NCBI GenBank assembly: GCA_963682025.1
Contig: OY821521.1
Location: 113,806,080 to 113,870,079, forward strand
Direction of reading: 5' to 3'
Length of the DNA: 64,000 nucleotides
Source: Cordilura impudica
Lineage: Eukaryota > Arthropoda > Insecta > Diptera > Scathophagidae
Shown here in pieces: positions 10,199 to 44,914 of this stretch (the first letter of the stretch is position 1; every line of letters starts with the position of its first letter). Position numbers and translations under genes: made by a program. The notes under the pieces are model-generated. The model searched no databases. It was not told the origin of the DNA and saw only the letters and a list, made by a program, of their open reading frames with translations.

Positions 10199-10208
10199 GG
10201 CGCAGTCG
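10198..10208 (+). promoter_or_regulatory. primer binding site, tRNA-Ser type
   Basis: TGGCGCAGTCG lies at the 5' LTR end, its first T overlapping the LTR. It is complementary to the 3' end of a serine tRNA as used by 17.6 and 297 elements. It primes minus-strand DNA synthesis. Confidence 0.8.
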
Positions 10209-10472
10209 CGGAAATTAAATTCTAAAGAATTTAATTTGAAAAAAAAACCTACACAACTGCCTTTAAATTCTGAAGAATTTAAAAAGAAAATTTTCACTGC
10301 AAATCCCAAGGGACCCTTCAGTGATAAAGATAATTAAATTTAGATATCATTACCGAAACCGGTCGTGGAATCAGCGAAAACTTGAAGAAAAAACGTATTA
10401 CTAGTGCTTTCCAAACCTTACTTGAGCAACATCAGATTACGCTTCCAGCTACGAGAAAAAGGAAAAAGTAAA

Positions 10473-14811: not shown

Positions 14812-16237
14812 CGGATACTGCATGTTACCAACAGAAACCGTGGAAATGGTCAATGAGACGAATCTAATATTACACATTATAAAACCACATGAATTAAGCA
14901 ACATACTGTATAACATACAGGAGAATATAAAAACCCTATCAGTAGATACAAAACAACATCTACTAACTCAAATAAAAACAATAGAAGCAAAAATTAGGTC
15001 TATAACACCCAATAACAAGAGACAAAAGCGAGGCATCCTGAATATAGTGGGAGACGCCCAAAAATGGCTCTTTGGAACTATGAACGACGACGATAGACAA
15101 CAAATCGAACAACGTCTCAATAACAACAGAATTAACAACCTACAAACAATAAATACTATAAACCAACAAATCGAAATAAATACGAACTTTAATAACTCAA
15201 TCTCAATACTAAAAGAAACAATACTTGACGACAGAAACAAAATAGCAAGTTACGTAAATAATATACAATCACATACTAACGATATTTACAGTAGACTAAC
15301 GTACCACGACCAATTACTGAAACTACAATACCTAGAGAACAAAGTTGACGAAATATTAGACAACATAGCCTCAGCGAAATACAACACCTTACACCCATCC
15401 ATACTAACGGCAGAGGAAATCAATAAATATGAGATTGACTTTCTAAAAATTAAATTAAGTAGGATAGGAGTCATGATGTATAACGACTCAATAATACTAG
15501 CAATTAAGTTACCAACTAACAGCATAGAATTTACACAATACACAATTGTACCCATCACAAACGAAAACCATCAAAAAATAGATGAAATATCAGAAAAGAT
15601 TGTTAAAATACAAAATAACACATTCTCCTTTGTAGAAAATAAAATTTTCAACGAGCTTAAACTAAGCAGCAATTGCGTAGCTAAAAACAATTGTAAACTA
15701 ATTAAAGATCTCGATACAAAAATAGAAGTAATAAATGACGGCACATTGCTTATACAAAACCCAGGAGAACTACTAATCACATCAAAATGTAACGAAACAG
15801 AGACAATCCATACAATACTTAATAATACACTCCTGGAGTTCATAAACTGTACAATCTTAATCCAAGATAAACAATTTTCAAATAAACAAAATATATATAT
15901 ACAAAAATTCGAAGAAGACAAAACAAATGTAAATTATAATTTCACAGACAAACCATCATTCAAAGAAATAATCATAAAAGAAGTAGAGAATATTAAAGAA
16001 ATACGAGAACTTAAAATAAGAAACATAATCTCAGACACAAGTCTAATAGCCATAGTTTTAATTCTAAGCATAATAATAATATACGGCTATATAAAAATCA
16101 ACAGAATTAAGGAGAATCCCATATCAATAGGGGGAGGAGTTACGTACTCGCCCTCCACGCAACCCGAACTAGATATCATCACAGACAACAACGACATTAA
16201 TATTATAGTACAGAAATACATGACAAAAGCAATATAA
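14726..16237 (+). CDS. env: errantivirus envelope protein
   Basis: A 503-codon open frame; the first residues after the start are hydrophobic and may act as signal peptide. It overlaps the pol end. A furin-type site (RQKR, about residue 105) is followed by GILNIVGDAQKWLFG, the conserved fusion-peptide region of insect errantiviral envelopes. Coiled, Asn- and Ile-rich sequence follows. A single membrane anchor lies near residues 432-452 (SLIAIVLILSIIIIYGY), and then a short cytoplasmic tail. The last 33 residues are encoded inside the 3' LTR, with the stop at 16235-16237. The role is surface protein for cell entry in infectious members of the group; function of this copy is unknown. The frame is intact. 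Confidence 0.8.
   Translation: MQVLILLMLTMTIPLTAASITLTPITATNGYCMLPTETVEMVNETNLILHIIKPHELSNILYNIQENIKTLSVDTKQHLLTQIKTIEAKIRSITPNNKRQKRGILNIVGDAQKWLFGTMNDDDRQQIEQRLNNNRINNLQTINTINQQIEINTNFNNSISILKETILDDRNKIASYVNNIQSHTNDIYSRLTYHDQLLKLQYLENKVDEILDNIASAKYNTLHPSILTAEEINKYEIDFLKIKLSRIGVMMYNDSIILAIKLPTNSIEFTQYTIVPITNENHQKIDEISEKIVKIQNNTFSFVENKIFNELKLSSNCVAKNNCKLIKDLDTKIEVINDGTLLIQNPGELLITSKCNETETIHTILNNTLLEFINCTILIQDKQFSNKQNIYIQKFEEDKTNVNYNFTDKPSFKEIIIKEVENIKEIRELKIRNIISDTSLIAIVLILSIIIIYGYIKINRIKENPISIGGGVTYSPSTQPELDIITDNNDINIIVQKYMTKAI
16127..16137 (+). promoter_or_regulatory. polypurine tract
   Basis: An AGGGGGAGG-type run lies directly before the 3' LTR start at 16138. It primes plus-strand DNA synthesis in LTR retroelements. 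It also sits inside the env frame. Confidence 0.75.
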
Positions 16238-16852
16238 AACATTTAGTAAAACCACCCGGAAATCATTTAACGAAAAATAAACAAATCCACAAAAATACCT
16301 TCAGCGTCACTTACACTGTCGTTATTTTTGTAGACCACCTAGAAAAAACCAAGACCTAAGCAATATAAAACATTTAGTAAAACCACCCGGAAATCATTTA
16401 ACAAAAAATAAACAAATCCACAAAAATACCAACGGTGTCACTTATACTGTCGTTATTTTTGTAGACCACCAAGAAAAAACCAAGACCTAAGCAATAAACC
16501 ATAAATACATTTAGACACTTAAAACACTTAAAGTAAATCCATATGTAAGCATAACTAAGATAACCCAAATTGTAAACCCACCATATGTATAACAATAAAA
16601 ACTAAAATAACCTAGATTGTAAAACCATATGTCATCATAACTAGAATTAAGAATTTCTATAAATACCAAAGTAAGATTATTGTAAAAGTTAGTCTTAAGA
16701 CCCACCACAAACCTAAAGGTTGTTATATTTAAATAAAATTAAAAGGTGTTTTTACAAAGAAATTATTTTGTTTTAATTTTTTCTTAAGAAAAAATAAGAC
16801 CATAATTTGGCACAGTCTTAAGACCAAATTCATAAAATAAAGACACATAATT
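16138..16852 (+). repeat. 3' LTR of the errantivirus
   Basis: Same sequence as the 5' LTR apart from about four positions. It contains the env stop codon, the two 131-bp tandem units (16227 and 16358) and AATAAA near 16734. It is followed by the CGCG target duplicate and then by integrase coding of the older element. Confidence 0.9.
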
Positions 16853-16856
16853 CGCG

Positions 16857-17276
16857 TGACTACTTAGGCAAAATAAGTGGCAATTTGGCAGAGTAATCGA
16901 AAGACAAGGTGATTTACATTATAGAAGTCAACTCGACGACAAAAGAACTTGGAAACGACACGTAGACCAATTGCGTAAGGTTGGTGAATTGGTAGATGGG
17001 TCACTAGTGACTGAACAAGTTCATCAACAACCAATTCAAGTTTCGCCTATTCAATTGTTAAGCAACAGTCCATCTCCGGTTATCAACAATAATAGCGACG
17101 AACTAAATGCAGGTGCATTGAACATTGTTACGCCATCGGAACCAAGTTTTAGTCCTGTAGCAACACCTCATCCAGAGACGATATCATCAGCAGCTCCAGT
17201 CGATATAACATCAAGGGATATAGCAGTACGCCGTTCCAATCGTATCAGGAAGCTGCCAAAACGCTATGAAGAGTAA
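16857..17276 (+). pseudogene. integrase C-terminus and tail of the K02A2.6-like element
   Basis: Joins the integrase broken at 9482: RDYLGK directly follows the insertion. After a one-base shift near 16880 the frame gives WQFGRVIERQGDLHYR and WKRHVDQLRK, the SH3-like C-terminal domain that binds DNA. A Pro/Ser/Thr-rich tail follows (from ATG-like 16971) and ends RRSNRIRKLPKRYEE. Such RRS.R.RK.P.RY endings are typical of this pol family. Stop at 17274-17276. Confidence 0.8.
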
Positions 17277-17299
17277 CACCAAAATAAGTAGCAGAGAGA

Positions 17300-17448
17300 T
17301 GTAGTATATGTATTTGTATTTCACATGTATATGAATGAGTATATGAGTTAGAATTGTAAGAGTAGTTGTAGTAAAAGATAACATGTAAAAATAAATAAAT
17401 GAAATCAGTCAGTTGTAATATGAACATCACTGTGTATGGATGCAACAG
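17300..17448 (+). repeat. possible short 3' LTR of the K02A2.6-like element
   Basis: Begins TGTAGTATATG after the purine-rich AGCAGAGAGA and ends TGCAACA, with AATAAA near 17391. It lies 24 bases after the pol stop. No second copy was found in the window, so the ends are a guess. Confidence 0.35.
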
Positions 17449-18316
17449 GTATGAAAGCTAAAACTATACTCCGTCGACTCAAGTCAGCTTAAAAAATTCG
17501 GTTAGCAAATGTGGAAAATATAAAAAAAAATAAAAATAGTTCATATGTATATGTCCCATTGGCCGTGAAAGGGTTAAATAAACAAAATAAAAATAAAAAA
17601 AATGGTTTGTACTTTTAAAACGCAAATCATCAATAGCTGTAGTGAAAATACCAAAAAGCTAATCGATGCTACAATAAATAAATCTTTGTTTGTTCTCAGC
17701 TGGATAGCACGTGTGGCTTTGCTGTTATTTCTTGTGTTATTACTGATGTTATTATTACAATTAGTGTTGTTTCTTAAATTAGGGAAATCTAGATTTGATT
17801 GAAATGAGTTGTTTTGTTGTCTGCTGTTATTCCGACGGTGCTTGATGGAAAATCAAAAAAATTTGATTTTGTCGATGTCACATACAAACAAATTTTCACT
17901 AATGCAATGCTGCTGGCTGCGATTGTAGTCGTGTAGTCAGCTACTTGTCTTATTTTTAAAACGACAGCAACATAAAACAACAATATAAACAGCTGTTTTT
18001 ATACAAAAGCATTTTTATTTCAGTAGTGACAATTATATTTTTTTTTTCTACTTTATTAAAATAGAAAAACATGCATGATTCTATATAAACTTGACTTAAA
18101 TATACAAATACTTATTTTTAATGCATTATTATAACGTAAAAACAAATAAATAAATTTACTTAACCGCTTTTGATTATTAATAGAATTATTATAGCATTTC
18201 ATTTTGCGATTAATTTTTTCAACAAAATAAAATATTTCATAGCACTAAAAATATCTTTTTGTTATATTGTCAACACTATTTTTGTTTTGTAGCCAACAAA
18301 AATAGAAATTAGCCTG
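17449..18316. other. AT-rich intergenic DNA with small repeat fragments
   Basis: No gene is seen. It contains a minus-strand LINE ORF1 relic (listed separately). The stretch around 17838-17925 resembles the interior of the small TIR element at 35921-36163 (shared GTCACA and CAAATTTTCAC blocks). Confidence 0.5.
17600..17802 (-). pseudogene. Jockey-like LINE ORF1 C-terminal relic
   Basis: Read on the minus strand, this matches the Asn-rich end of the ORF1 found at 19700-19950 (LPNLRNN-type start, NNNTS runs, NKDLF, then FFGIFTTAIDDL-like coding). The plus-strand leucine-rich ORF over it is a shadow. It is a fragment of the same LINE family in opposite orientation. Confidence 0.65.
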
Positions 18317-18784
18317 AAGGTGCTATTACACGAAGTGTTTTTTACATACGTACTGTCACTTTTTTTATCCATATGCAATTCTTCATGTTTGTCAAAATTG
18401 TCTTTTACATACGATTCATAATTTTTGCTATCATACGTGCGTATGTATTTCCGTATGACATAACCTCTAAATGTAAACAACAGCTGATTTAATTTGTGAA
18501 TTTACAAAAATTTGCTGTTAAAAAAAGGTTATATATTTTTTAATTGTTAATTCATACTAAACAATTTATTTTTCTTTCAATATTAATCTTTAATATTTAC
18601 TCTGTTTCAGTTCGAATCTAACTCTCTTTACGAACGGTTGTGTAAAAAATCAAAGCGCTTAGAGTACAACTATTTAAAATTAAAAACAAGTGTTTATTTT
18701 TGTTTTTGCAATTGCCTATTCTTGATCTCATTTGAACTCACGTGGTAGACAATCCAGCTTTAAAACAGGAATAAAAATTTTGCG

Positions 18785-19951
18785 ATGGCCCGAGGGGCCA
18801 AATCTTCATCAAAAAGAAAGCTTGTGAATAAGAAGATGACAAAACTTCCTCCGGGTTTTGTTAACCCGAACATGGCGTCAACTTCAAGCAACAGATTCAG
18901 CCTGCTTGCTGACCTCAATGATATGGACGTAACTCCCGTATCAAATATTAACGATGTTAAGGAACACAAACCTCCACCCATTGTTGTAGAAGCTAACGCT
19001 TCATTTACAGAAATACAAAAGCTACTTGGTAAGGATTGCATTTTCAAACGTACTTCAATTGGTACCAAAATTTTTGCTCCTAGTAATAAAATGTACGAAT
19101 GCTACAAGCAAATACTTAAAGAGAATAAGATGGAGTTTCATTCTTATGGCTCCAAAGAAAATAGGTTATACACCACCTTTTTACACGGTTTACCCCGCAT
19201 AAGCTCTGAGGAAATCTCCAAGGAGCTAAAAAACTACAACCTATCCCCCTCTTCCGTAACTGAAATAACCACCAAATTCAGTTCAAACAATAATGCAGTT
19301 TATAAAGTTCAATTTGTTCGTAAAAATTTTAATCCAACTGCTTTAAAAAATGTACGAACAATTTCTAATATTATAATTTCTTGGAAAAAATATAAATCGA
19401 AATCCAAGAACAAACCAACTCAATGCTGGAACTGCTTGATGTATGGCCATGGCGGTGAACATTGCCATCGAAGTGCTGCATGTATGATATGTGCAGAACA
19501 ACATCATACAAGTGTGTGTCCGTTTAACACAAATGAAAAAAGACCAGCTGTTTTTACATGCTTTAATTGCAAAAAACAAGGAAAAGAGAGAACTGATCAC
19601 TCTGCAAACGATATCAACTGTCCGTTACGTTCTCTCTATTTGGAAACTAGAACAAGAGTTACTTCTAAAAGTCTGAATAAAAGCAGACAACAACAAAATA
19701 ACTCATTTCAATTTAATGTGGGAGATTTTCCTAACTTAAGAAACAACAACACAAATTGTAACAATAACATCAACAATAACAGCAAAGCTACATATGCTAA
19801 CCAGCTGAAAACAAACAACGATTTATTTAGCATTGATGAGCTTTTTGATATTTTCACTACAGCTATGGATGATTTGCATAGGTGCACTTCAAAAGTACAA
19901 CAAATCAAAGTTGTAATGTCAATGGTAAAATACGCCCATGGATTATACTAA
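18785..19951 (+). CDS. Jockey-like LINE ORF1 (Gag-like nucleic-acid-binding protein)
   Basis: A 388-residue open frame. Residues 60-200 form an RRM-like region (FTEIQKLLGKDCIFKRTSIG, LYTTFLHGLPRISSEEI). Three zinc knuckles follow at residues 217-285: CWNCLMYGHGGEHC, CMICAEQHHTSVC and CFNCKKQGKERTDHSANDINC. The tail is rich in Asn. It would bind LINE RNA and help form the RNP. It overlaps ORF2 by 14 bases (ATG 19938). The frame is intact. Two other relics of the same ORF are in the window, both on the minus strand (17600-17802, 36230-37141). Confidence 0.85.
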   Translation: MARGAKSSSKRKLVNKKMTKLPPGFVNPNMASTSSNRFSLLADLNDMDVTPVSNINDVKEHKPPPIVVEANASFTEIQKLLGKDCIFKRTSIGTKIFAPSNKMYECYKQILKENKMEFHSYGSKENRLYTTFLHGLPRISSEEISKELKNYNLSPSSVTEITTKFSSNNNAVYKVQFVRKNFNPTALKNVRTISNIIISWKKYKSKSKNKPTQCWNCLMYGHGGEHCHRSAACMICAEQHHTSVCPFNTNEKRPAVFTCFNCKKQGKERTDHSANDINCPLRSLYLETRTRVTSKSLNKSRQQQNNSFQFNVGDFPNLRNNNTNCNNNINNNSKATYANQLKTNNDLFSIDELFDIFTTAMDDLHRCTSKVQQIKVVMSMVKYAHGLY

Positions 19952-22900
19952 TAATTTAAACGAATTCAAAATGCTTCACTTGAATGCTAATGGCATTTCA
20001 AACTTTTCTAAATTAAAACAATTTGAGATACTAATTGAACGAGAAAATATTAAAATAGCGTCTTTGAATGAAACTTTTTTTTCAGAAAATCATAGACCCT
20101 ATTTTAAAAATTATTATTTATATAGAAGTGACAGAACAGATGCAAGAGGATGAGGAGTAGCTCTGTTAATTCATAAATCTGTCGCTCATAAAAACCTCTT
20201 TATATCAAACACTTCATCAATCGAAAACATCTCAATTGAAGTTATTATAAATAATAGACCTATTGTTGTATCTTCATTATATTCACCAAGATATACCCAT
20301 AACTTCTGTGCTGATATCTTGAACCTAACACCTTCCACCAAAGAATACATAGTTTTTGGTGACCTAAATGCCAAACATTGCTCTTGGAATTGCCGTTCAA
20401 ATAATACTGCAGGAATCGCACTGAACAATCTACAGCAATCAAGCAATTTTTTTATACACTATCCTAATAGTCCAACCCTATTCCCCCATCAACACAATCG
20501 CGAAGCATCTACAGTCGATATTATTTTAAGCAATACCGCTTTGAATATAGACGTAAAGACAATGGATTACGAAATACCATCAGACCATCGCCCCATTATG
20601 TGTACACTTAAAAGATCAGTGGCCTCGCAGGTTGACCTCAACTATTATGATTATAGTGCAACCAACTGGAACATTTATATGAATTTTTTAGAAAATAAAA
20701 TCACGTTAAATTCGGATATATACAATACCAAGGTAATAATTGATCAGGAAATACAAAAATTTATAAATGTAGTTTTTGAAGCAAGGGATGCGTCTACACC
20801 TAAAATAACTCAACAAAATAATTTCACATTACCAGAAAGTACTGTGAAATATATTAAACTAAGACGAAGCTTTAAAAGAAAAAGCCAACGATCTTCAAAT
20901 ATAGCCGAGCAAACTTTTTATAATCAATGTACTAAGTTTCTAAGTAACACGATTGATAAAAGTATTAATTCGGAACGCAATAAGAAATGGTGTAATTATT
21001 GTCCAATTTAAAACCAGGTGATAAATCATTTTGGAGAATAAGCAGGAACTTGCGAGGAAAAGGAAAAAATCAAGTCTTTCACCTTGAGGTTGGAAATACA
21101 AGGATAACATCTGATAAGGACAAGGCTGAAGTCCTGGCAAATACATTTGTCAAAGCAAATAACCTCACTTCGAATTACAACCACTCAGCGGATATAGTAA
21201 TAAATTCAACAGTAAATAATTTTAAGAAGGAAAATCCCACTTCTGAGTCAGCAATTTATACATCTCTAGAAGAAGTAATGAATATTGTCTCATCAATAAA
21301 ACCCTCAAACACAATCGCGAAGCATCTACAGTCGATATTATTTTAAGCAATACCGCTTTGAATATAGACGTAAAGACAATGGATTACGAAATACCATCAG
21401 ACCATCGCCCCATTATGTGTACACTTAAAAGATCAGTGGCCTCGCAGGTTGACCTCAACTATTATGATTATAGTGCAACCAACTGGAACATTTATATGAA
21501 TTTTTTAGAAAATAAAATCACGTTAAATTCGGATATATACAATACCAAGGTAATAATTGATCAGGAAATACAAAAATTTATAAATGTAGTTTTTGAAGCA
21601 AGGGATGCGTCTACACCTAAAATAACTCAACAAAATAATTTCACATTACCAGAAAGTACTGTGAAATATATTAAACTAAGACGAAGCTTTAAAAGAAAAA
21701 GCCAACGATCTTCAAATATAGCCGAGCAAACTTTTTATAATCAATGTACTAAGTTTCTAAGTAACATGATTGATAAAAGTATTAATTCGGAACGCAATAA
21801 GAAATGGTGTAATTATTGTCCAATTTAAAACCAGGTGATAAATCATTTTGGAGAATAAGCAGGAACTTGCGAGGAAAAGGAAAAAATCAAGTCTCTCACC
21901 TTGAGGTTGGAAATACAAGGATAACATCTGATAAGGACAAGGCTGAAGTCCTGGCAAATACATTTGTCAAAGCAAATAACCTCACTTCGAATTACAACCA
22001 CTCAGCGGATATAGTAATAAATTCAACAGTAAATAATTTTAAGAAGGAAAATCCCACTTCTGAGTCAGCAATTTATACATCTCTAGAAGAAGTAATGAAT
22101 ATTGTCTCATCAATAAAACCCTCAAAATCTCCTGGTTTTGACAATGTTCCCAACCTGCTCTTAAAGAAACTACCACTCAAAGCTCTAAAATTACTGGTTA
22201 TAATATTTAACAGCTGCATCAAACTCAACTATTTCCCAAACCATTTCAAAAACGCTAAGGTTATAGCTATCAACAAACCTAGTAAGCCAAAAAATAACCC
22301 AAATAGCTATAGACCTATTAGTTTATTAAGTAACTTAGGTAAAATATTTGAAAAAATACTACATTCTCGTCTTAGTGAATTTGTAACGACCAATTCTATT
22401 GTTGCTAAAGAACAATTTGGATTTAAAAAAGGGCATAGCACTACTCACCAAATAAACAGAATTAAAAATCAAATAATCACAAATAAAAACAATAAACGTT
22501 CAACGGGTTTAATATTGTTAGATATTGAAAAAGCGTTTGACACCGTTTGGCATAATGGCCTAGTATTTAAACTTCTTGATGCAAATATACCAAAATATTT
22601 ATTCAAACTTATTTCAGATTTCATTCACGGCAGAAGCTTTAAAGTTGCGATTAATAATGAAACATCATCTCCAAAAACCATTACCACAGGGTTACCTCAA
22701 GGATCAGTCTTGTCGCCAATGCTTTACTCGATATATACATCCGATTTCAATGTTCCGAAATATATGAAAGTTGCTTACTACGCAGATGATACTGCGTTAA
22801 TTTCTTCAAACAAACTTACAAGTGCACTCCTGTAGAAAATGGAAAAGGGACTTGTTAATTGCAGTAAATATTTTCACAAATGGAAAATCAAAATTAATCC

Positions 22901-25672: not shown

Positions 25673-26397
25673 GTCTTAAAAAGTTATTCTTGTTCTAATG
25701 CGGCCTACACACGAGGCAACCAGTTGAAGCAATGGTTGTAGCAACAATGATACACAATTGATACAACGGTTGCCTCAATTAGCCAGAAATATCAAAAAGT
25801 TTTGATATTTTTCGTTGGTTGAGGCAACCGTTGCTACGTGTACATCACCGTCCAACCAGTCCAGACACACACTAGCGACATCTACATTTTTGTTTGTGAA
25901 CTACATAAATTTTCATAATATTTTTACAACCACTTTCAGATGAAACAACTATATTAATGTAATATGCTGTCACCCTTATACACGTTGTATATTTTTTTTA
26001 TTATTTATTTCTGCTTATTCATTGTCACAAATTGAAATTTCTGTGGGCAAATTAACGCGTTCTTATTGCAGTTAATTGTATTATAAATTGAAATAAGTGT
26101 GTTAAATAAGATTTACATTATAACTGATATTTGCTGACAAAATAATGTAATTAAAGTGAGTGTGTTTAACATTACATATTACAGTAAATAAATTTATAGA
26201 AAAAATATAGTATTCCAGGTAATTTCATTAAAACTCGAAATATAAATAAAATATATTGGAAATAAATAAAACTAATTTTTATTTCTCGTTTAGATAAATC
26301 TGTTGCCGATTGCGTTGAAACCTTATTTGGAGTATAGCATATGATGCTAAAGAAGCTAGTGAACCTAGTAGTACTTTTCCTGACTGTTGTTACTGTT

Positions 26398-27225
26398 TAT
26401 GGCTCTTAGACTTCGTCCAAATCTCCACTGCTACACTACACCCAATGGTGAAGAAACGCCGAGTTATACGAAATTTGAACAAGCTTTGAAATATAAATTC
26501 CGCGGCAGATCGTACTTTTTGCAAGCCATTATTTATGCCTCATACTCCCAATAGATTGTGTTTAGAATTCTGGGTGATGCTGTATTGGATTATTTGATAA
26601 GGCTTTTGTATGAAGACCCTAGGCAACATTCACCTGGGGCCTTAAACGATTTGAGATCTGCTTTAGTTAACAATACCGTATTTGCGTAATTAGCTGTAAG
26701 GCATGAAAACCGCAAATATTTTATACACATGTCTCAGGTCGTAACGAAGCTATTGATCGTTTTGTGCGTATTCATACGAAAAATGGTTATAGTATAAGTA
26801 AACGAAGAGGTTAATATTATGAAGTCGTTGAAATACCAAAGGCATTAATTAGGTGATGTTTTCGAGTCTGTTGCAGGTGCGATATTTTTAGACTCGAATA
26901 TGTCTTTAGATGCTGTGTAGTTGGTTTGCAATAATATGATGCGTCCTGAAATTGAACAATTTAGCAATTCGGTGCCAAAATTACAAATAAGGGAACTACT
27001 TGGATAAGAACTGCCAAATTTATGTTATTTTTTATGCTTTAACATTTAAATTGTACATGGGATCAAATTTTTAATTTTCAGCAAACCCGAAAAATTAACT
27101 GATGGCCGACGTGTTCGTGTTACCGTACAAGTTTTTCGGTAGAAAATATCGGATTGCCAAATGTACTGCTGATAAATGTGCTTTACGTCAGTTGAAGAAT
27201 TTTTTTTATATTTTAATCTATGTTG
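26398..27225 (+). pseudogene. Dcr-1: Dicer-1 fragment: RNase IIIb and dsRNA-binding domain, left arm
   Basis: The translation in pieces matches the C-terminal end of insect Dicer-1: [95 protein letters not shown] and YRIAKCTADKCALRQLK. The acidic catalytic context of RNase IIIb (GDAVLDYL) is visible. Lesions: loss of about five codons and a base before GDAVLD, a stop after NNTVFA, stops in the middle, and a likely unspliced intron at about 27013-27081 that ends TTTTCAG before the KPEKL block. An intron argues for DNA capture, not retrocopying. In its functional form the enzyme makes microRNAs; this copy cannot. Confidence 0.85.
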
Positions 27226-27919
27226 TGTAGTTAGATCGAAAAATTCAAAAAAATATATACCTACATTTCATCATGTTCTTTTGTTTTAGTTTTGAAATAA
27301 ATGCCCGTAGTTTCGTTTTATTTTTGCATAGATGCAGAGATAATTAAAAATTTACATTAAATTCTAGTTTTAAATTAAAGCAATCAAAAGGAACTAATGT
27401 TGTAGTTAGAGGTTTAACTTTAGCCATTTGTAGTTTTGGCTTTACTTTCGACTTTTTTACGCGTTTTAAGCGATCTATATATTATGTTTTTAATTTTATT
27501 AAATTAAAAATATAATTCCACTCTGACCATACCGCCAATTGCACCAACTTACATTTTTTCTATTCGTATTGATTTTGTTGCTTCTATTGTTTACTTTTAT
27601 CAAAATTAAATCCTTCATTAACTTCATTCCAAGGTGTACAAGTCCGTCTACTTACAGGAATAAAAAAGTAGAAAATTAATGTTTTATGTATGAAGCTAAC
27701 GGTATAGTACCCAATGTGATGGGAATATTACCAGACAAATTACGATGAGAAGCATTACACGAACTCTACATGCAAGTCATAATCAAAAACAATACAATAC
27801 CACAATTCAACTTGCGAAAAGTTTCGTCACCAGCAACTGCACCAATGGTTAGCTTAGCTATAGTAATTAGTGATTACTTCCTTTCGGCCCTGGGTTGAGT
27901 AGTATTGTATGCAATTGTC
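27226..27919. other. left-arm DNA between the Dicer-1 and Noc3-like pieces
   Basis: AT-rich, no gene recognised. Its minus-strand reading GAVAGDETFRKLNCGI (27780-27840) may be a further coding relic; I do not recognise it. The same piece recurs at 29610-29690 and 33270-33330. Confidence 0.4.
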
Positions 27920-28525
27920 TTAAAACAAATTTTTACAAGCATCAGCAAAACCCTCCAAAATGTCACTCAAAACCTTAGAATTGGCTTTTTTCTCATCCAA
28001 CTCCTATTTTAACTCAGCCAACTTTTTATGTTGTTTGCGTTCCTTTTTCGATAAACTCAACAAACGTTTACAATGAGCCTCCAACTTCTTTTGTTTCAAT
28101 TCATTTTCTTTCTCTGCATCTACATAAACATTTTTTATCTTCAAAGCCCACAAACAAGTTATACATTCCAAGTTGAAATTGTTGTTTTTAGCGTTGATTA
28201 AATGATTAACGCGACGTACATATTGTGAAAAGAGTCATGTGAAGCTTTTTATCATTGGCAAACACAAAACGGAAACAGTTCTTAATATCATGTTTACTTT
28301 CATCATCCTTTCATCATCACCAGCAGCATGTTTACTTTTCGTTGTTTTTGCCTCTTTTCGATTGCAAAAATTTCGAATCTTCACCATCCAGCATGTCGGC
28401 TACATTATCCAGTATCTTCATATTGTTCATCATCGTTGTTTTGCTTCTTCCTTCTTGGCCGCCTTTTTTTGTGCCAGCGATAGTAATTTTTGCTTTCTTC
28501 CTTCGGCCCTGGCTTGAGTAGTCTT
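27920..28525 (-). pseudogene. Noc3-like nucleolar protein fragment, left arm
   Basis: Minus-strand coding gives, in pieces, YEDxLDNVADMLDGED, RRVNHLINAKNNNFNLECIT, ALKIKNVYVDAEKENELKQ, RLLSLSKKERKQHKKLAELK and NSKVLSDILEGFADACK. This order and wording fits the central part of NOC3 proteins (large-subunit ribosome assembly), as I know the family. Frameshifts and stops (for example after KKLAELK) break it. It ends at TAA near 27920, earlier than a full Noc3. The neighbouring Dicer-1 piece points the other way, so the two are tail to tail. Confidence 0.6.
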
Positions 28526-29156
28526 GAATGTAATTGTCTTACGTAAAACAAATCACAAGCTATGTGTTTTAATATACACCTTTTATACATATTTTTATAT
28601 CAAAACAGATAATACGATATTCTTAATGTTTTTTAAATGTTTATCAATAGCAAATACTCACTATTTTTTCCATTATAATTGTTTTTCATGCTGGTTACAA
28701 ACATGTGTAGCTGTTCACTTGCACACATTACATTTTATTTTTTAATCTCTTTCTCAAAGTTGTTATAGCAATTCTAAGAAAAAAAAGGTAAACAAAGCCA
28801 TACGGTTCGTGTTTACTTTTTTGACAGCTGTCAAGTTGTCACGACTGTGTAAAAGCCTAGTTAGCCACAAGTAACCTTAACCAAACGTGTCAGCTGTTTT
28901 TTTCTGTTACATGAAAAGCATTTAGAGCAGTTACCGAACTCAACTGTCACGTAACCGGAACGTCCCAATCTGTTGAAAATAGATTTTTGCTACGTTTGTA
29001 CGTGACATTTGCGAACAGCTGATAAAGTTTGGTTAATTTTACACAGCAACATGATGGTTCGTTTTTTACGTTCTATAATTGCACTAAATGCCAACGTTAC
29101 ATTTACGGTACGGATACATTTTAACAACGTGTGGCTAACTAGGCCTTTAGGCTGTG

Positions 29157-29760
29157 GTCACAGCCTAACACCACAGCTTATACCAGTTGTGACAGCTTGA
29201 CAGCTGTCAAAAAAGCAATCTCGAACCGTATGGCTTTGTTTACCTTTTTCTCCATTTTGTTTTGGTAAAGAAGTGCGAAAGAGATTAAAAAAATAGAATA
29301 TACAAAATATAATGTGTGCAAGTGAACAGCTATAGAACATGTTTTCAACCACTGACAGCATAAAAAATAAAAACAATGGAAATTTAGTGAGTATAAACAT
29401 TGAAAAAAATTCATAAAATTGTATTTTTGACAAATTAACATTAAATTTAGTAATCTGTGGTATTTCCTTTTCAGAAGTAAAAGGTATAATAGGTGCATAC
29501 TAAAACCTAAAGCTTGTGATTGTGATAATACCAGTAATGTTGGTATAAATGCTGGTAAATTTGCCAGTTACATTCACCACTGCTCAACCCAGGGCCGAAA
29601 GGAAGGAATCAAAAATTACTATAGTTGAGCTAACTATTGGTCCAGTTGCTGGTGGCGAGTCACGAAACTTTTCGCAAGTTGAATTGTGGTATTAATGCTT
29701 TGGATTATGACTTGCGCGTGAGTGGTCCTAAATCGAAATTTGTCCGGTATTATTCAATGC
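29157..29760. repeat. third, diverged copy of inverted-repeat arm sequence
   Basis: 29157-29520 matches the right-arm end at 32265-32590 (CGAACCGTATGGCTTTGTTT, AATGTGTGCAAGTGAACAGC). 29577-29760 matches 33219-33430 (CTCAACCCAGGGCCGAAAGG). Between them the Noc3-like piece is missing. It is more diverged than the two arms are from each other. Confidence 0.75.
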
Positions 29761-29939
29761 TTTGGGCACTACGCCATTGGCTTTATAAATAAAACATTAA
29801 TTGACACTTTTTTTACTCTTCCGCAACTGAAGACAAAATCTCAAATATAACAACAGATATCTACAATTGAGAACGCTTCTAAACAACAGCCTGTTGAACA
29901 GATTTAATTTTATAAAGGCTAGTAAACCCTTAAAAATGT

Positions 29940-30235
29940 GAGTTCCAAAAATTAACAATTACGAACAACAAATACAAAACCACCAAGAACTACAAAAATT
30001 GATTGAGTATTTGGAAATGGGATTGAAGTATAAAGAAAAACAACTTCAGTAAAATGTAAAACAGACAAAACAACAAATGACTTACAAAAATTAGTAGATG
30101 GACTACAAGCAGAAGTAGCTAAGAAAGCCCAACTTAAAGTTGAAAAGGAAAGCAGAAAATTTCAGTGGCATAGAAAAGGATTTGTTGTAACAATTGCAAG
30201 AACCAAAAGCAGAAAAACAATGTAAGTTAATAATA
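29940..30235 (+). pseudogene. unrecognised coiled-coil-like coding relic
   Basis: Broken frames give NYEQQIQNHQELQKLIEYLE, LKYKEKQLQ and LVDGLQAEVAKKAQLKVEKE, heptad-like sequence. It ends at AATGTAAGTTAATA, a possible splice donor. I do not recognise the family. The stops inside it rule out a product. Confidence 0.35.
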
Positions 30236-30606
30236 TATATAAACATTTTGAAATCACTGATATTCATATATGCACTGCATTTGTTTTTAAACCTTACAGT
30301 GACGATTATATAATTAAAGTTTTAAGCCAAACTCTTCCAGTTTTCTTTGCTACAATATATTTTTCTGCCTCTTCTGTGCATGATATGATAATCATTTTTT
30401 ATTAAGATATTTAGTATTGATTGTTATTTATTTTTTAAATTTGTGTACTTATAGCAACAGGAAAAATTGTTGAGTACAATAAGCAAAGCTGCTGTTGGAG
30501 GCAGTTTTTCGGATAAAGGAATAGACAAAAAGACTTGCGGGATGTGCCTAAACGTTTGTGTCCAGAGGCAGTAAAAGTTTGTGCTGGCACAGCCCTATCA
30601 GTACCT

Positions 30607-30792
30607 TTAAATCAGTGGATAGAACCGGTCTTCACAACCCAGATTAGACAGCTTGAGGAGACATTTCTGCGAGTGTATACTCGTTGGATCAGTGGCTATA
30701 TTACTCGCAATACCAAAATATATTATTTTAAGACGGCCGTTAACCATAAGAAAACTATCTGGTTTTAAATCTGAATGTATTTTGCTGGACAT
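30607..30792 (-). pseudogene. protein kinase fragment, TTK/Mps1-like
   Basis: A 61-codon minus-strand ORF includes HSDLKPDSFLMVNGRLKIIY, then FGIASNIATDPTS. The catalytic loop HSDLKP followed by FLMV, and the FGIASNI segment, are typical of TTK/Mps1 checkpoint kinases. The metal-binding DFG motif reads YFG, so this fragment is dead even apart from truncation. The expected activation segment does not follow. It is the third host-gene fragment in this region. Confidence 0.6.
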
Positions 30793-32614
30793 AGTTTACA
30801 GCCAGATTATAGTTTACAGTATTTGATGTACAAAGTTTGTGAGGTTATATAAAGGTAAATTTGTTGTGTAACTTTGTAAAGCTAGCAACTTTGTTGTAAA
30901 TCGACCACCTAATTGTAAAAGTTATTAAAAAAAACCATTGGATTTTAATAAAAAACACTATATTGACTTTTGTAAAAGATGTTTATTATTTGTTATAAAT
31001 ATGTAAGAACAAGATCTGAATATCAATTTAATATAGAAAAAATAACAAATTTAGAATATACAAAAAATATATAAATATAGACATACCGGTTCGGATCCCT
31101 CGGTAACGTATGGAGTCTTGCCTCCCCAAGATCACAACCCATTAAACACACACTATATTAAAAAAAATATATATATATATATATAAATAACATTGTTTAA
31201 TTTTTTATTAATTCAAGTTCGTATCTACTTATATGCATTATAATTTTTAGGAGAAAAATGTATAAATACCCACTTAGAAGCTTATAGTTAAACAAGTATG
31301 AAAATTATACCATGCGTTCACAGGCCCTATCTCTAAGGCCCAACTAATTGGATATAGAAAATAAGCATAAATCAAATTTTAACATAGACAGATTTTCACC
31401 AATTTAAATAGCGTTCATCCTATGGCCGATAGACGCTTCTATACTACATTGCATCAAAATATATTCATATTTGCGAGCTGTAGTTTGGTTACAAGGTTTA
31501 CATGGACACAGAGACGGACGGACGGACATTGCTAAATCAACTCACAAAGTGATTGAGCCAATCGGTATAATTAAAGATGGTTACAAACATCAGCACTAAG
31601 TCATTATACCCTAACCACAAAGCGAATACATTAAAATTGTAGTGGGTGTTAACTGTAACTTGTCTTCGGTTAATATATTTTCTCTTGTTAAAAGAGCTTC
31701 TCCAACCGTACCGACCAATACATTCTTTAATTCAGCATTAACTTGTCTGAAATTTGAATTGGCCATGAAAATTGGTGCGCTCTTCTTTGTTTCTGTAATT
31801 CCTCTATGTTCTAACTCTGCAGAATCCTTAATCCCTCTATTTGTCCGCCTCAGGAGGTTCTTCTAACACTTAAGTTTTCATGGTGGACATTTGTCACACC
31901 TAGATTTGTTGGGCAAACAACCATTGGTGTACCTGTTGCTTAGCTTTTTTCTGTACACTAGTATTTACACATTTTCTTTTTAAACTATAATGCATATTCT
32001 GTTACTTACTTTAATGCCATTATTATTTATTTTTTATATTTAAAAAATTTTATTTGTGATAAACTGTGCTGTGGAATTTTCAAAAAATTTCTTCCCAAAT
32101 TAGAATTTTTGACAGTAATAATCACAAATAAATAAAAACAATGTATACAACGTGTATAAAGGTGATAGCATATACTTTTTAATATAGCTGTTGCTTCCGA
32201 TTTCTTTACAAAATGCAACCCTGATTTGATTGTTAAAACAAAAATACAGTGTTGTATACAGTGCTGTGGCCTAACACAGTCGTGACAACTTGACAGCTGT
32301 CAAAAAAGTAAACACGAACCGTATGGCTTTGTTTACCTTTTTTTTTCTTAGAATTGCTCTAACAAATATGAGAAAGAGATTAAAAAATAAAATATACAAA
32401 ATATAATGTGTGCAAGTGAACAGCTACACATGTTTGTAACAAGCATAAAAAACTATAATAATGGAAAAAATAGTGAGTATTTGCTATTGATAAACATTTA
32501 AAAAACATTAATAATATCGTATTATCTGTTTTGATATAAAAATATGTATAAAAGGTGTATATTAAAACACATAGCTTGTGATTTGTTTTACGTAAGACAA
32601 TTACATTCAAGACT

Positions 32615-33204
32615 ACTCAAGTCAGGGCCGAAGGAAGAAAGCAAAAATTACTATTGCTGGCACAAAAAAAAGGCGGCCAAGAAGGAAGAAGCAAAACAAC
32701 GATGATGAACAATATGAAGATGCTGGATAATGTAGCCGACATGCTGGATGGTGAAGATTCGAAATTTTTGCAATCGAAAAGAGGCAAAAACAACGAAAAG
32801 TAAACATGCTGCTGGTGATGATGAAAGTAAACATGATATTAAGAATTGTTTCCGTTTTGTGTTTGCCAATGATAAAAAGCTTCACATGACTCTTTTCACA
32901 ATATGTACGTCGCGTAAATCATTTAATCAACGCCAAAAACAACAATTTCAACTTAGAATGTATAACTTGTTTGTGGGCTTTGAAGATAAAAAATGTTTAT
33001 GTAGATGCAGAGAAAGAAAATAAATTGAAACAAAAGAAGTTAGAGGCTCATCGTCAACGTTTGTTGAGTTTATCGAAAAAGGAACGCAAAAAACATAAAA
33101 AGTTGGCTGAGTAAAAATAGGAGCTGGATGAGACAAAAGCCAATTCTAAGGTTTTGAGTGACATTTTGGAGGGTTTTGCTGATGCTTGTAAAAATTTGTT
33201 TTAA
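32615..33204 (+). pseudogene. Noc3-like fragment, right arm
   Basis: Same coding as in the left arm, here on the plus strand: DMLDGEDSKFLQSKRG, then NVYVDAEKE-type and SKKERKKHKKLAE stretches, and SDILEGFADACKNLF before TAA near 33203. The shared stop after KKLAE in both arms shows it was already broken before the arms were duplicated. Confidence 0.6.
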
Positions 33205-34169
33205 GACAATTGCATACAATACTACTCAACCCAGGGCCGAAAGGAAGTAATCACAAATTACTATAGCTAAGCTAACCATTGGTGCAGTTGCTGGTGACGA
33301 AACTTTTCGCAAGTTGAATTGTGGTATTGTATTATTGTTTTTGATTATGACTTGCATGTAGAGTTCGTGTAATGCTTCTCATCGTAATTTGTCTGGTAAT
33401 ATTCCCATCACATTGGGTACTATACCGTTAGCTTCATACATAAAGCATTAATTTTCTACTTTTTTATTCCTGTAAGTAGACGGACTTGTACACCTTGGAA
33501 TGAAGTTAATGGAGGATTTAATTTTGATAAAAGTAAACAATAACAAAATCAATACGAATAGAAAAAATGTAAGTTGGTGCAATTGGCGGTATGGTCAGAG
33601 TGGAATTATGTTGTTAATTTAATAAAATATGTGAATTATATTTTCAACAGTTCGAAAGCAAATAAATCTTAGTAGGAGAGAACGACCAACCATTAGCAGA
33701 AATGGTAGCGCAACCTACATATTATACAAAAGCCCATCAATCCTTAAACAAATTTTAATATATAAGAGAAGGATGAAATAAAAAATGTATTTGTAGATTT
33801 CCAACGTTTTTAAACATGATGTCCCCAAAATGATGACAATGTATGCTCAATTTATGAAAAGTAATATATAGATCGCTTAAAACGCGTAAAAAAGTCGAAA
33901 GTAAAGCCAAAACTACAAATGGCTAAAGTTAAACCTCTAACTACAACATTAGTTCCTTTTGATTGCTTTAATTTAAAACTAGAATTTAATGTAAATTTTT
34001 AATTATCTCTGCATCTATGCAAAAATAAAACGAAACTACGGGCATTTATTTCAAAACTAAAACAAAAGAATGGTTTATTATTTGAAAAACTTTTTTGATA
34101 CTTTAACATAATGAAATGTATATATTTTTTTGAATTTTTCGATCTAACTACACAACATAGATTAAAATA

Positions 34170-34978
34170 TAAAAAAAATTCTTCAACTGACGTAAAGCAC
34201 ATTTATCAGCAGTACATTTGGCAATCCGATATTTTCTACCGAAAAACTTGTACGGTAACACGAACACGTCGGCCATCAGTTAATTTTTCGGGTTTGCTGA
34301 AAATTAAAAATTTGATCCCATGTACAATTTAAATGTTAAAGCATAAAAAATAACATAAATTTGGCAGTTTCAGGTTCTTATCCAAGTAGTCCCCTTATTT
34401 GTAATTTTGGCACCGAATTGCTAAATTGTTCAATTTCAGGACGCATCATATTATTGTAAACCAACTACACAGCATCTAGACATATTCGAGTCTAAAAATA
34501 TCGCACCTGCAACAGACTCGAAAACATCACCTAATTAATGCCTTTGGTATTTCAACGTCTTCATAATATTAACCTCTTCGTTTATACTATAACCATTTTT
34601 CGTATGAATACGCACAAAACGATCAATAGCTTCGTTACGACCTGAGACATGTGTCTAAAATATTTGGGGTTTTCATGCCTTACAGCTAATTACACAAATA
34701 CGGTATTGTTAACTAAAGCAGATCTCAAATCGGTTAAGGCTCCAGGTGAATGTTGCCTAGGGTCTTCATACAAAAGCCTTATCAAATAATCCAATACAGC
34801 ATCACCCAGAATTCTAAACACAATCTATTGGGAGTATGAGGCATAAATAATGGCTTGCAACAAGTACGATCTGCCGCGGAATTTATATTTCAAAGCTTGT
34901 TCAAATTTCGTATAACCCGGCGCTTCTTCACCATTGGGTGTAGTGTAGCAGTGGAGATTTGGACGAAGTCTAAGAGCC
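34170..34978 (-). pseudogene. Dcr-1: Dicer-1 fragment, right arm
   Basis: Reverse-complement partner of 26398-27225 with the same codon losses, stops and intron remnant. At several sites it looks closer to functional Dicer-1 than the left arm: RSYLLQ rather than [15 protein letters not shown] rather than ALNDLRSAL, and KYFRHMS rather than KYFIHMS. Not translatable as a protein. Confidence 0.85.
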
Positions 34979-35607
34979 ATAAACAGTAACAACAGTCAGG
35001 AAAAGTACTACTAGGTTCACTAGCTTCTTTAGCATCATATGCTATACTCCAAATAAGGTTTCAACGCAATCGGCAACAGATTTATCTAAACGAGAAATAA
35101 AAATTAGTTTTATTTATTTCCAATATATTTTATTTATATTTCGAGTTTTAATGAAATTACCTGGAATACTATATATTTTCTGTAAATTTATTTACTGTAA
35201 CGCGTTATGTTAAACACACTCACTTTAATTACATTATTATTTTGTCAGCAAATATCAGTTATAATGTAAATCTTATTTTACACACTTATTTCAATTTATA
35301 ATACAATTAACTGCAATAAGAACGCGTTAATTTGCCAACAGAAATTTCAATTTGTGACAATGAATAAGCAGAAATAAATAATAAAAAAAATATACAACGT
35401 GTATAAGGGTGACAGCATATTATATTAATATAGTTGTTTCCTCTGAAAGTGGTTGTAAAAATATTATGAAAATTTCTGTAATTCACAAAGAAAAATGTAG
35501 ATGTCGCTAGTGTGTGTCTGGACTGGTTGGACGGTGCTGTGGTGTATATCATTGTTGATACAACCATTACTTCAACTGGTTGCCTCGTGTGTAGGCCGCA
35601 TAAAGCG

Positions 35608-41855: not shown

Positions 41856-44681
41856 TCAATCTGAACCATAAAGAAGTCTCATGAGTTTCAGACGAAAAAC
41901 ATTATTTGAGTGCGAAAAAATCCGCAATTCCAATGGAAGTTTATTCCAATACCTTGTGACTCTGACAACGAAAGATCTACCAAAAGCCGATCTAACAATT
42001 CTAGGGGAAACAAAGTGTGGGTTTCTATTAAATGATGAAAAGAAAAAGGTTCTACACAGGGCAGAGGGTCGACCACTTTTCATAATCTTATGAAACGTAA
42101 CCAAATTACGATATTTAATAAAAGATTTAAAAGAGCATCCAAGAAATCGTTTAACAAAGCCTGAAATATGATCTCTACGTCTAACATTAAATACAAATCG
42201 AACAATAGTATTTACTATGCACTTCAGCCTAGTAAGGTTAATACCAATCGTACCAGAAAAAACTTCAAATCCGTAAAGGACTTGTGACATCAAAATTGCA
42301 TGAGCTAATCTCTTCTTAACACACAAAGGCAGAAATATATTCGTACGATTAATTTTACGCAGAGAACCCCAAATCCTACCCGACAAAGCATTAATATGAT
42401 TGCCAAAAGAGAGCTTCTTGTCAATTACTACACCCAAGCATTTATGATGATCAACAAATTGAACTACATCATCCCCTAAGAAAATATCCAAATCCAAAAA
42501 GAAACGATTTGTAGGTCCAAACATAATCGCCTTAGTTTTAGATGCATTTACCGATAAAGAATTCGCCACAGTCCATTGCATCACATGCACTGAGCATGAA
42601 TTTATGTTATCCTCAAAAACTTCTACAAACCTACGGTTACCACTAAATAAAAGGAATACATCATCAGCAAACAAAAAAGTAGAACAGCATCTTGAATTAG
42701 TAACATCCACAAGGTCATTAACATAAAGAATGAATAAAAGCGGACCCAATACCGATCCTTGAGGGACTCCAGAAAATAGAGGAAGTATACTAGATTCAGT
42801 CCCATTTGCCGATACAAACTGAGACCTACCAGTCAAGTAGGACATTATAAGTCTGCAGGCAGCCATAGAGAAATTAAATTCATTCTTAAGTTTAGTGATC
42901 ATTGTAGAAAAATCAACAGAATTAAAGGCTTTCGATAAATCCATAGAAACCAAAACACTTAATCTATCATCATTTATGTTCTCCCTACTAGAATCAGTAA
43001 GTCTAAGAAGCAGCGAAGTGGTATTCACACCTTGGCGAAAGGCATATTGCGTTTCACAAATCTTTCTAGAAGTAAAACAAATCATCTGATCCTTTAATAT
43101 ATGCTCAACAACCTTAGACAGAGCAGGGAGAATAGAAATAGGCCTCAAATCATCTGGGCTATGCACAACCCTAGATTTAGGAATAGGAACCACACGCGCT
43201 ATTTTCCAAGCTGCAGGGAAAGTCGACATAGTCAAGATCGAATTTACTAGGTGTAAAATTACACCAGATATAAAAGGAAAAACTACCTTCAAGAAATGAA
43301 TCGGCACACCATCGATGCCAACCGACCTAGACTTCACCTTGTTCAGAGCCTCAAACAATTCTACCTCATTTATACCACTAAAAGAAAAGGATCCATCAGA
43401 ATCATGAAAGTTGTTAAAGTTAAAATTACCATGATTAGAAGCACCAGAACATGCAAAATAGCTATTAATAGCATCAGAATCAAGCAACAAGTCAATATTA
43501 TCATCACCAATACAACCCGAGCCTCGAATTACCCTCCAGAACCCAGCAGAATCCAGTCCACCAAAAAGCCTCGAAAAGTGCTTTCTCTTTTCCCTGCGAA
43601 TCACGTTTTTTGCCCTATTGCGAAGTTTGCAATATGTTCTCCAATTCAGCCATGACCGATCAGATAGAAAAGCAGAATAAGATAGATCCCTGAGAGATCT
43701 CGCGAGGACAATACTACTAGACTTCATCCAAGCATCACCTTCATAACGTACAGCAATTCTAACAGTAGGGACATAGAAATAAAGAGTGCTTAAAAGAGAG
43801 CTCACAAGGGAACATTTGACATCAATATCTATAGAATTAAAGATTCGCGATAAATCAAACTCATTTAGAGACTGAAACACACCATCCCAATCAATGTTCT
43901 TAAAATCACGATATTCTAAAAATTCTTGAAAAAAATCAATATTAAAGACAAAAGAAGCAAATATAAGCGAGTGATCAGAAATAGATGGACATTGCACCTG
44001 ATCAGAAAAACTTATCGAAACATTACTAATCATAAAAAAATCAATAAGGGACGTAGACCTGCTTCTTAAGTCAAGGTGAGTAGGCTTAGAATTATGAACC
44101 ACAGATAGATTGCACCTCAAACATAGAGAGCGAAATATATCAGATTTCGAAGAGTTAAATAAATTGTAATTAAAATCACCCACGACAATAATATTAGAGT
44201 ATTTAGAAAATAACCCACAATGTTCCCACTCGAACTTCATCAAATCACCATTTGGTAGATAAACCACCCCAAACAAAAGTTTTATTTTACTGAAACATAA
44301 CTCAACAAACAGGGATTCACAACCAGGGATTAGAACTTTGGAAACAACTTTAAACTTTAGCTTTTTGGATATATAAATTCCAACTCCACCACCTCTAGAG
44401 GGATATGAGCGCTCGCTACGGCAGATTCTATATCCGTGAATTGCAACCGCTCTATCAGAAATATGATCATTTAACCATGTTTCCGTAACAGCAAACACAT
44501 CAAACATACTACTGGTAAGAATGGATTTAAGTTCATCAAGTTTAAAAGAATTTGCACTAGGTGATAAACTACGACAATTTAAGTGAGCCACTTTAAAATG
44601 ACCCTGATATGGAAGCAAGACATTATTCAGGTACGTACTACCACTAACAACTGGACCAAGATTATCATTAGAAGACATCAA
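41856..44681 (-). CDS. CR1-like LINE ORF2: endonuclease and reverse transcriptase
   Basis: 941 codons without a stop. AP endonuclease at residues 30-240: AHLNCRSLSPS, VFAVTETWLND, GVGIYISKKL, VGDFNYNLF and SISDHSLIFAS. RT at about 480-760: VGIDGVPIHFLK, DLRPISILPALSKV, SMDLSKAFNSVDF, GVPQGSVLGPLLFILYVNDL and the catalytic LFADDVFLLF. A C-terminal part includes HKCLGVVIDKKLSF and SQVLYGFEVFSG. Every catalytic residue I can check is present, so the enzyme could be active. It nicks target DNA and reverse-transcribes the LINE RNA at the nick. A 233-base gap separates it from ORF1. Base composition matches the surrounding DNA. Confidence 0.9.
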   Translation of the reverse strand: MMSSNDNLGPVVSGSTYLNNVLLPYQGHFKVAHLNCRSLSPSANSFKLDELKSILTSSMFDVFAVTETWLNDHISDRAVAIHGYRICRSERSYPSRGGGVGIYISKKLKFKVVSKVLIPGCESLFVELCFSKIKLLFGVVYLPNGDLMKFEWEHCGLFSKYSNIIVVGDFNYNLFNSSKSDIFRSLCLRCNLSVVHNSKPTHLDLRSRSTSLIDFFMISNVSISFSDQVQCPSISDHSLIFASFVFNIDFFQEFLEYRDFKNIDWDGVFQSLNEFDLSRIFNSIDIDVKCSLVSSLLSTLYFYVPTVRIAVRYEGDAWMKSSSIVLARSLRDLSYSAFLSDRSWLNWRTYCKLRNRAKNVIRREKRKHFSRLFGGLDSAGFWRVIRGSGCIGDDNIDLLLDSDAINSYFACSGASNHGNFNFNNFHDSDGSFSFSGINEVELFEALNKVKSRSVGIDGVPIHFLKVVFPFISGVILHLVNSILTMSTFPAAWKIARVVPIPKSRVVHSPDDLRPISILPALSKVVEHILKDQMICFTSRKICETQYAFRQGVNTTSLLLRLTDSSRENINDDRLSVLVSMDLSKAFNSVDFSTMITKLKNEFNFSMAACRLIMSYLTGRSQFVSANGTESSILPLFSGVPQGSVLGPLLFILYVNDLVDVTNSRCCSTFLFADDVFLLFSGNRRFVEVFEDNINSCSVHVMQWTVANSLSVNASKTKAIMFGPTNRFFLDLDIFLGDDVVQFVDHHKCLGVVIDKKLSFGNHINALSGRIWGSLRKINRTNIFLPLCVKKRLAHAILMSQVLYGFEVFSGTIGINLTRLKCIVNTIVRFVFNVRRRDHISGFVKRFLGCSFKSFIKYRNLVTFHKIMKSGRPSALCRTFFFSSFNRNPHFVSPRIVRSAFGRSFVVRVTRYWNKLPLELRIFSHSNNVFRLKLMRLLYGSD

Positions 44682-44914
44682 AACAAGATTTAATTATGGT
44701 AGGGAACAATGAGAAACATGCGAAATGAAAAGCACCAAAAATTAAAATTAATATCAAACAATTCATAACAACAAATTAATATAATTCATAAATCAACAGC
44801 TGATCACAAAAGTTAAGAAGATCATATAAAAAAATATAAAGAAAAAACCGTATTGATGTGAAGAATATATCAAAAAAAAAAAAGAAAAAAAAATAATGAT
44901 AAGAACCAAATCCA

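Follow-up and report, generated by a model that had tools for sequence, protein, structure and literature searches.

An inverted repeat with Dicer-1 sequence in the fly Cordilura impudica as two neighbouring insertions of a dispersed, probably hAT-like transposon

The genome of the scathophagid fly Cordilura impudica contains a giant inverted repeat whose arms carry sequences of Dicer-1 and Noc3. It lies in a stretch of 64,000 nucleotides (assembly GCA_963682025.1, OY821521.1, positions 113,806,080 to 113,870,079, forward strand), here called the window, which was located in C5 of the genome assembly. The arms are very probably two independent insertions, in opposite orientation, of one hAT-like transposon which carries pieces of both host genes and has spread to at least 40 loci; a nested transposon has widened the gap between the arms. 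The element contains genomic DNA from the 3' part of Dicer-1 in one contiguous stretch, with intron sequence, and, as a separate acquisition, pieces of Noc3 in reversed orientation; both captures presumably preceded the spread. Probably moved by the transposase of another element, the composite is now found at no fewer than 40 loci in subfamilies, the young one at 99.4-99.9% identity. Two copies very probably landed near each other independently, in opposite orientation, and a related transposon entered the last 13 bp of the right copy and extended the gap from about 300 bp to 3.4 kb. The captured pieces are probably passengers, and double-stranded RNA (dsRNA) or small interfering RNA (siRNA) from the pair would be incidental. 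An action of RNA on Dicer-1 is not needed to explain the repeat; the hairpin is a by-product of neighbouring insertions.

The inverted repeat is real, yet it is not a single palindromic structure. In a self-comparison of the window the main blocks had E = 0, which excludes a chance origin of the match. The arms, 3,005 bp on the plus and 3,268 bp on the minus strand, are 3,418 bp apart and 98.1% identical over the aligned parts, with indels; about 230 bp of the right arm (near 33628-33862) are missing from the left one. Size and identity as first described were confirmed, and the outer edges were corrected: a 59-bp inverted match (25698-25756 and 35543-35601) is separate and outside both elements. 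The true extent of the right-hand element, also corrected, is from 35536 down to 29159 with the spacer transposon nested within. Pfam identified RNase III (E 1.3e-12; 48.8 bits at a cut-off of 27) and the Dicer dsRNA-binding domain (dsRBD; E 1.6e-5; 25.8 bits, slightly below the cut-off of 26). Top match in a PDB search was Dcr-1 (8dfv, E 1.5e-52), and at the DNA level the same content matched the native Dcr-1 gene of this genome, the product of which is 92% identical to the PDB Dcr-1 over 123 residues. The Noc3 content matched native Noc3 DNA (87% over 302 bp); a PDB search with the translated Noc3 piece alone gave nothing convincing. Accordingly, the initial annotation was right in placing the RNase IIIb/dsRBD part of Dicer-1 and a Noc3-like piece in each arm. 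An Rfam scan of the window at gathering scores yielded no matches.

Each arm is a copy of a non-autonomous DNA transposon of about 3.27 kb, CACCGTCC...GGCTGTG. The common ends of the family are CACCGTCCAAC...GTTAGGCTGTG at a length of about 3,272 bp. The left arm matched at least 40 places in the 1.486-Gb genome, a lower bound in which both window copies are counted, some matches are partial and some places may be segmental or haplotype duplicates. The main matches were 94-98% identical (one second half 89%), most with the same start and end points. We fetched 36 further loci (L009-L044; a listed copy at C4:235.4 Mb was left out). Exact 8-bp direct duplications, in 28 different sequences, surrounded 29 of them (26 detected by script; L010, L034 and L035 read from printed flanks), and imperfect ones were present at L037 (one mismatch) and L039 (two mismatches). 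Among the 36 loci no duplication was found at L012, L013, L041, L042 and L043. L012 and L013 have identical flanks and are 99.9% identical, i.e. a single insertion that was duplicated; in L041 and L043 one end is missing, and L042 is chimeric with the family of the nested element. L019 and L024 occupy the same target repeat in opposite orientations with an identical 8-bp duplication; together with L009 and L026 they are separate insertions at or adjoining one 8-bp site, CATAAGAC, within a target sequence that is itself repeated.

The two arms fall into different subfamilies and are, therefore, independent insertions. The right arm is 99.4-99.8% identical to the members of the young subfamily (L014-L017, L021-L023, L027, L028), with 99.8% to L016 on C4, compared to 98.1% to the left arm. 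Among 21 other copies compared, the top match of the left arm was L009 (98.7%). In a tree of 36 copies (partial L041, L042 and L043 omitted; 18 of 33 inner branches weak) the right arm was inside a clade of 12 rows (SH-aLRT 99) and the left arm inside a different clade (SH-aLRT 85). Each arm begins at the exact transposon end, and the flanking bases differ. A palindromic duplication of a single Dicer-1 pseudogene in one event would account for opposite orientation, 98% identity and near spacing. Given that each arm is nearer to copies elsewhere than to its partner and starts at the exact transposon end next to different flanks, and that a pair with identical arms which does look like the product of one event exists elsewhere (L020), we regard such a duplication as practically out of the question; the subfamily membership of the arms was the ground for its rejection. 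What had been taken for a special hairpin locus consists of two ordinary members of a dispersed family, inserted independently. An assembly artefact, which the initial annotation had allowed for, appears unlikely because about 2% of the sequence differs between the arms and both have a more similar copy elsewhere in the genome than their partner. An even spread of 40 copies predicts about 0.01 pairs within 10 kb, hence the closeness of the arms is unusual if copies are evenly spread. Many copies are clustered mid-contig in large contigs, and a third copy is located about 45 kb from the window pair. The L020 locus (C3:157129500-157139300) holds two inverted copies of the Dicer element which are 100% identical where aligned and share out one target duplication, one copy on each member of the pair. 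This looks like a one-event inverted duplication and would be a better hairpin candidate than the window pair.

Read on the minus strand, the right arm has the order ...GACTGTGTTAGGC / CACAGC...GCTGTG / GTGTTAGGC / TGTG / ACCACAG. It follows from this order that most of the spacer is another transposon, which went into the terminal 13 bp of the right arm. The insertion duplicated 9 bp of the arm's own tip, or 8 bp under another reading of the end. The right arm is bounded by the target duplications CACCACAG and ACCACAG, one at each side. The family of the nested element is present in at least 40 places, with main matches of 91-99%, and is 69-80% similar to the Dicer element near the ends; the first bases at the left end of the window copy differ from those of the full-length copy L054. 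Were the nested element removed, some 300 bp would separate the arms. A Pfam search of the spacer in six frames gave no match. Within the nested element (31306-31580) is a short interspersed repeat common to the native Dicer-1 locus, the Noc3 flank and the Dicer-2 locus, and it can mislead similarity searches. The features of the locus are collected in Table 1.

Table 1. Features of the inverted repeat, in window positions.
Feature	Position	Strand	Remark
Left flank of left-arm element, 8 bp, GTGTACAT	25838..25845	+	no partner found; right tip of copy lost
Left arm: copy of the ~3.27-kb Dicer-1/Noc3 transposon	25846..28850	+	ends ~9 bp short of right end; ~230 bp internal loss
Captured Dicer-1 segment, left arm	26207..27480	+	last exons, intron sequence, post-stop DNA; broken
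Captured Noc3 pieces, left arm	27942..28436	-	antisense to Dicer piece
Inter-element stretch of ~300 bp, putatively MITE-like, short inverted ends GCCTAGTTAGCCACA	28851..29151	.	from direct reading of the sequence
Right-side target duplication of right-arm element, ACCACAG (minus strand)	29152..29158	-	one base shorter than CACCACAG opposite
Right-arm tip past nested insertion: 9-bp GTGTTAGGC (duplicated by nested transposon) plus TGTG	29159..29171	-	
Nested related non-autonomous transposon, CACAGC...GCTGTG	29172..32268	-	dispersed family; most of spacer
Right arm: body of full-length copy, youngest subfamily	32269..35536	-	99.8% to copy at C4:159.36 Mb
Captured Dicer-1 segment, right arm	33773..35172	-	element 365-1764
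Captured Noc3 pieces, right arm	32699..33182	+	element 2355-2838; antisense to Dicer piece
Left-side target duplication of right-arm element, CACCACAG (minus strand)	35537..35544	-	

Native Dicer-1 is located at about C1:0.3 Mb with open exons (the part read extends from the dimerisation domain to the C-terminus). About 331 Mb away, at C1:331.8 Mb, is native Noc3. Positions 365-1764 of the element are colinear with 5238-6925 of native Dcr-1 (L045+L051). They comprise the closing part of an intron and then the exons that run from DKSVADCVE to the C-terminus, shortened by internal deletions, together with a trace of another intron, a third one in full and about 450 bp past the stop. Because intron sequence and post-stop DNA are kept in order, genomic DNA was captured and not mRNA. 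This bears on the idea that the Dicer piece is a processed, i.e. reverse-transcribed, pseudogene that was duplicated later. Stops and deletions do break Dicer, as expected of a pseudogene; however, the alignment to the native gene takes in a complete intron, portions of two more and genomic DNA past the stop, and an origin by reverse transcription is so improbable that we rejected it, since introns are present. Positions 2355-2838 correspond to three non-adjacent pieces of native Noc3 in antisense. The opposite orientation of the two captured segments suggested a single contiguous capture of Dcr-1 and Noc3 as convergent neighbours. This was rejected because the genes are some 331 Mb apart and because the Noc3 part is made of three non-adjacent pieces. 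Identical stops interrupt the Dicer frame in nearly all copies which cover these sites, and so does the loss of some six residues around CYQRLE (L034, L039 and L040 each lack one of the shared stops). Because these lesions are common to nearly all copies, most of the damage is older than the spread. L029 had been considered as a less-decayed Dicer stretch and was rejected, as it merely has a 4-bp deletion that restores the frame.

Other Dicer-like loci were encountered. L049 and L050 resembled Dicer-1 pseudogenes at first and were rejected as such; L050 has an open frame that is presumably Dicer-2-like, and what it has in common with the Dicer-1 locus is a shared repeat. The native Dicer-1 itself is within a near-perfect inverted duplication with copies 60 kb apart near the start of C1 (L045, C1:296000-312572; L046, C1:357288-373860). 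Identity was 99.88% over 3.3 kb, mirrored samples of 387 and 501 bp were 100% identical, and more central samples were not mirrored; this duplication could be real or an assembly artefact. An unrelated repeat unit of about 1.36 kb, TGTTGCG...CGTAACA, carries another Dicer-1 exon together with its intron, about 90% identical (L047, 795-2150; L048, 802-2150; C2:188.34 and 188.37 Mb).

How have the captured sequences aged? Comparing exons A and B of the right arm with native Dcr-1, differences were 19/235 at first, 20/240 at second and 31/240 at third codon positions. Thus codon positions 1 and 2 diverged by about 8%, and introns and post-stop DNA by 15% (84/560). The other eight copies compared showed similar divergence save for the post-stop part of the left arm (96/383), an excess which we put down to misalignment beside its deletion. 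These values fit about 8% change at all sites on the branch of the element and mainly silent changes on the native branch. The captured Dicer piece decays at a neutral-looking rate, and the pattern is that expected of a neutral element branch and constrained native exons. In this comparison of the right arm and eight other copies there was no sign of selection preserving complementarity to Dicer-1, and the proposal that a Dicer-1 pseudogene regulates Dicer-1 found no support. Copies differ from the majority sequence by 0.5-1.3% (L039 2.1%), and because this is so little, the spread must be much younger than the capture. Conceivably, the capture took place in another species and the element arrived by horizontal transfer.

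A transcript across both arms would, as proposed, form a long duplex. Its perfectly paired parts contain 1,957 different 21-mers, of which 45 (about 2%) exactly match the coding sequence of native Dicer-1, 15 its introns and 2 its post-stop DNA; 7 match Noc3. None of the controls (200 shuffled elements, the nested element, window 1-20000 and 36001-64000) shared a 21-mer with the Dicer-1 coding sequence. Because duplex 21-mers match native Dicer-1 and controls do not, targeting of Dicer-1 by siRNAs from the duplex is chemically possible. Some other copies match to a greater extent; stretches shared with one Dicer-1 exon reach 60 bases in L034 and L039. Conceivably, then, the inverted pair is transcribed through like a hairpin RNA (hpRNA) locus and yields Dicer-2-dependent siRNAs which lower Dicer-1 and Noc3 mRNA. 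The long inverted repeat is a feature of such loci, the Dicer-1 coding and Noc3 matches are there with controls at zero for Dicer-1 coding sequence, and in D. simulans hpRNA arms homologous to the small-RNA gene tapas yield matching siRNAs (PMC10317233). Nevertheless, we consider this very unlikely. The gap of 3.4 kb holds a nested transposon, the arms are from different subfamilies, no more than about 2% of the 21-mers in the duplex correspond to Dicer-1 coding sequence, and the neutral-looking decay of the Dicer piece means that complementarity is not kept. Similarly, there is little to be said for a gain of the element from its Dicer-1 pieces, with close inverted copies (the window pair and that at C3:157.13 Mb) as dispersed dsRNA sources which dampen Dicer-1. 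Were it true, the element family would interfere with the small-RNA machinery of its host.

To which class does the transposon belong? We call it hAT-like because 8-bp duplications, short imperfect terminal inverted repeats (TIRs) and length fit hAT elements, which have these features (PMC3942097). In the target duplications position 2 was T in 15 of 28 and position 7 was A in 17 of 28 (L010 left out); the target preference of Hermes is nTnnnnAn (PMC10368747). On many contigs the genome has stop-free hAT transposase frames of 616-618 codons, more than 20 in all and many equal in score, which suggests that a hAT family was recently active. Several points weigh against the proposed origin. The TIR is short and imperfect, CACCGTCCAAC versus CACAGCCTAAC with 8 of 11 bases equal, compared to a hAT TIR criterion of 10-25 bp. 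No transposase was matched by Pfam in the left arm or spacer. Eight sampled hAT transposase loci had no convincing end in common with the Dicer element within the 1 kb downstream of each, a distance which did not reach all ends. The top end match was 63% over 208 AT-rich bases to L064, tip excluded, with the end of that family beyond the stretch read. In the 618-codon family two copies diverge after 283 bp and the tip is unlike that of the Dicer element. The 1 kb read for the 616-codon family stops short of its end. Finally, the left arm has no pair of target duplications and the pair of the right arm is unequal by one base. Helitrons make no target site duplication and were rejected on account of the 8-bp duplications. 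The terminal CAC is unlike the usual start of a hAT element and counts for mobilisation of the same transposon by a P-superfamily instead of a hAT transposase. P elements likewise leave 8-bp duplications, at a similar palindromic target, GTCCGGAC (PMC3276498). This is possible, though doubtful in view of the short imperfect TIR, the target pattern which fits nTnnnnAn of Hermes (PMC10368747), and the intact hAT transposases that abounded in a genome search aimed at hAT only. The duplications of Galileo are 7 bp (PMC2775673).

The element is real and, though unusual, belongs to a known kind; it is a multicopy Pack-TIR with pieces of Dicer-1 and Noc3. Segments of these host genes are inside the ends of a TIR transposon, transpositions were independent with distinct target duplications (29 of 36 loci, 28 distinct), and the parental genes Dcr-1 (open frames in the part read) and Noc3 are intact. 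Gene capture by DNA transposons is well known in plants. The paper which defines Pack-TIRs, a large survey of animals, lists few multicopy ones: none in insect reference genomes, four multicopy cases from frog and alligator, and Ssk-FB4 with four copies in D. melanogaster populations (PMC8277862). Like Pack-hAT-N8_XT in frog and Ssk-FB4, the Dicer element has host-gene DNA in a TIR transposon with distinct target duplications; unlike the Pack-TIRs described there, it is in at least 40 places and captured two genes, one of them of the RNAi machinery (PMC8277862). The closest parallels for amplification and for capture of two genes come from a fungus and a nematode, respectively. A hAT element of Dothideomycetes similarly captured a housekeeping gene, histone H3, and has many broken copies beside an intact native gene; it differs in being fungal, inactivated by RIP and limited to a single gene (PMC6710886). 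In Turmoil-1 of C. elegans two unrelated host gene fragments were transduplicated into one transposon as well, but they are in its inverted terminal repeats and the transposon is another one (PMC2572040). The nearest precedent for an inverted repeat homologous to a small-RNA pathway gene is the Drosophila hpRNA hp-ODox1 (PMC10317233); hpRNAs are recognised by Dicer-2-dependent siRNAs of about 21 nt and a primary transcript. In a limited literature search no description of a Dicer-carrying transposon was found. With at least 40 copies, two captured genes and a young subfamily, the element offers many independent insertions for studies of capture, spread and side effects. The capture of Dicer-1 permits a specific and cheap question: do close inverted copies give rise to siRNAs against a core RNAi gene?

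Further features of the window were observed. An open frame of 945 codons (41856-44693, minus strand) is in a region with endonuclease and reverse transcriptase domains and belongs to an intact-looking LINE. Direct repeats are present at 50182-51583 and 62562-63962 (98.6%) and at 9482-10202 and 16137-16856 (99.3%); a third one, 20485-21309 and 21302-22126 (99.5%), is a tandem copy inside a retroelement-like frame. The nearest gene found, apparently complete with introns, is on the minus strand from 38771 to 37349, and we take it to be Get3/ASNA1. It is 1.8 kb from the inverted repeat and directed towards it; the interval from its stop to the repeat has four putative poly(A) signals.

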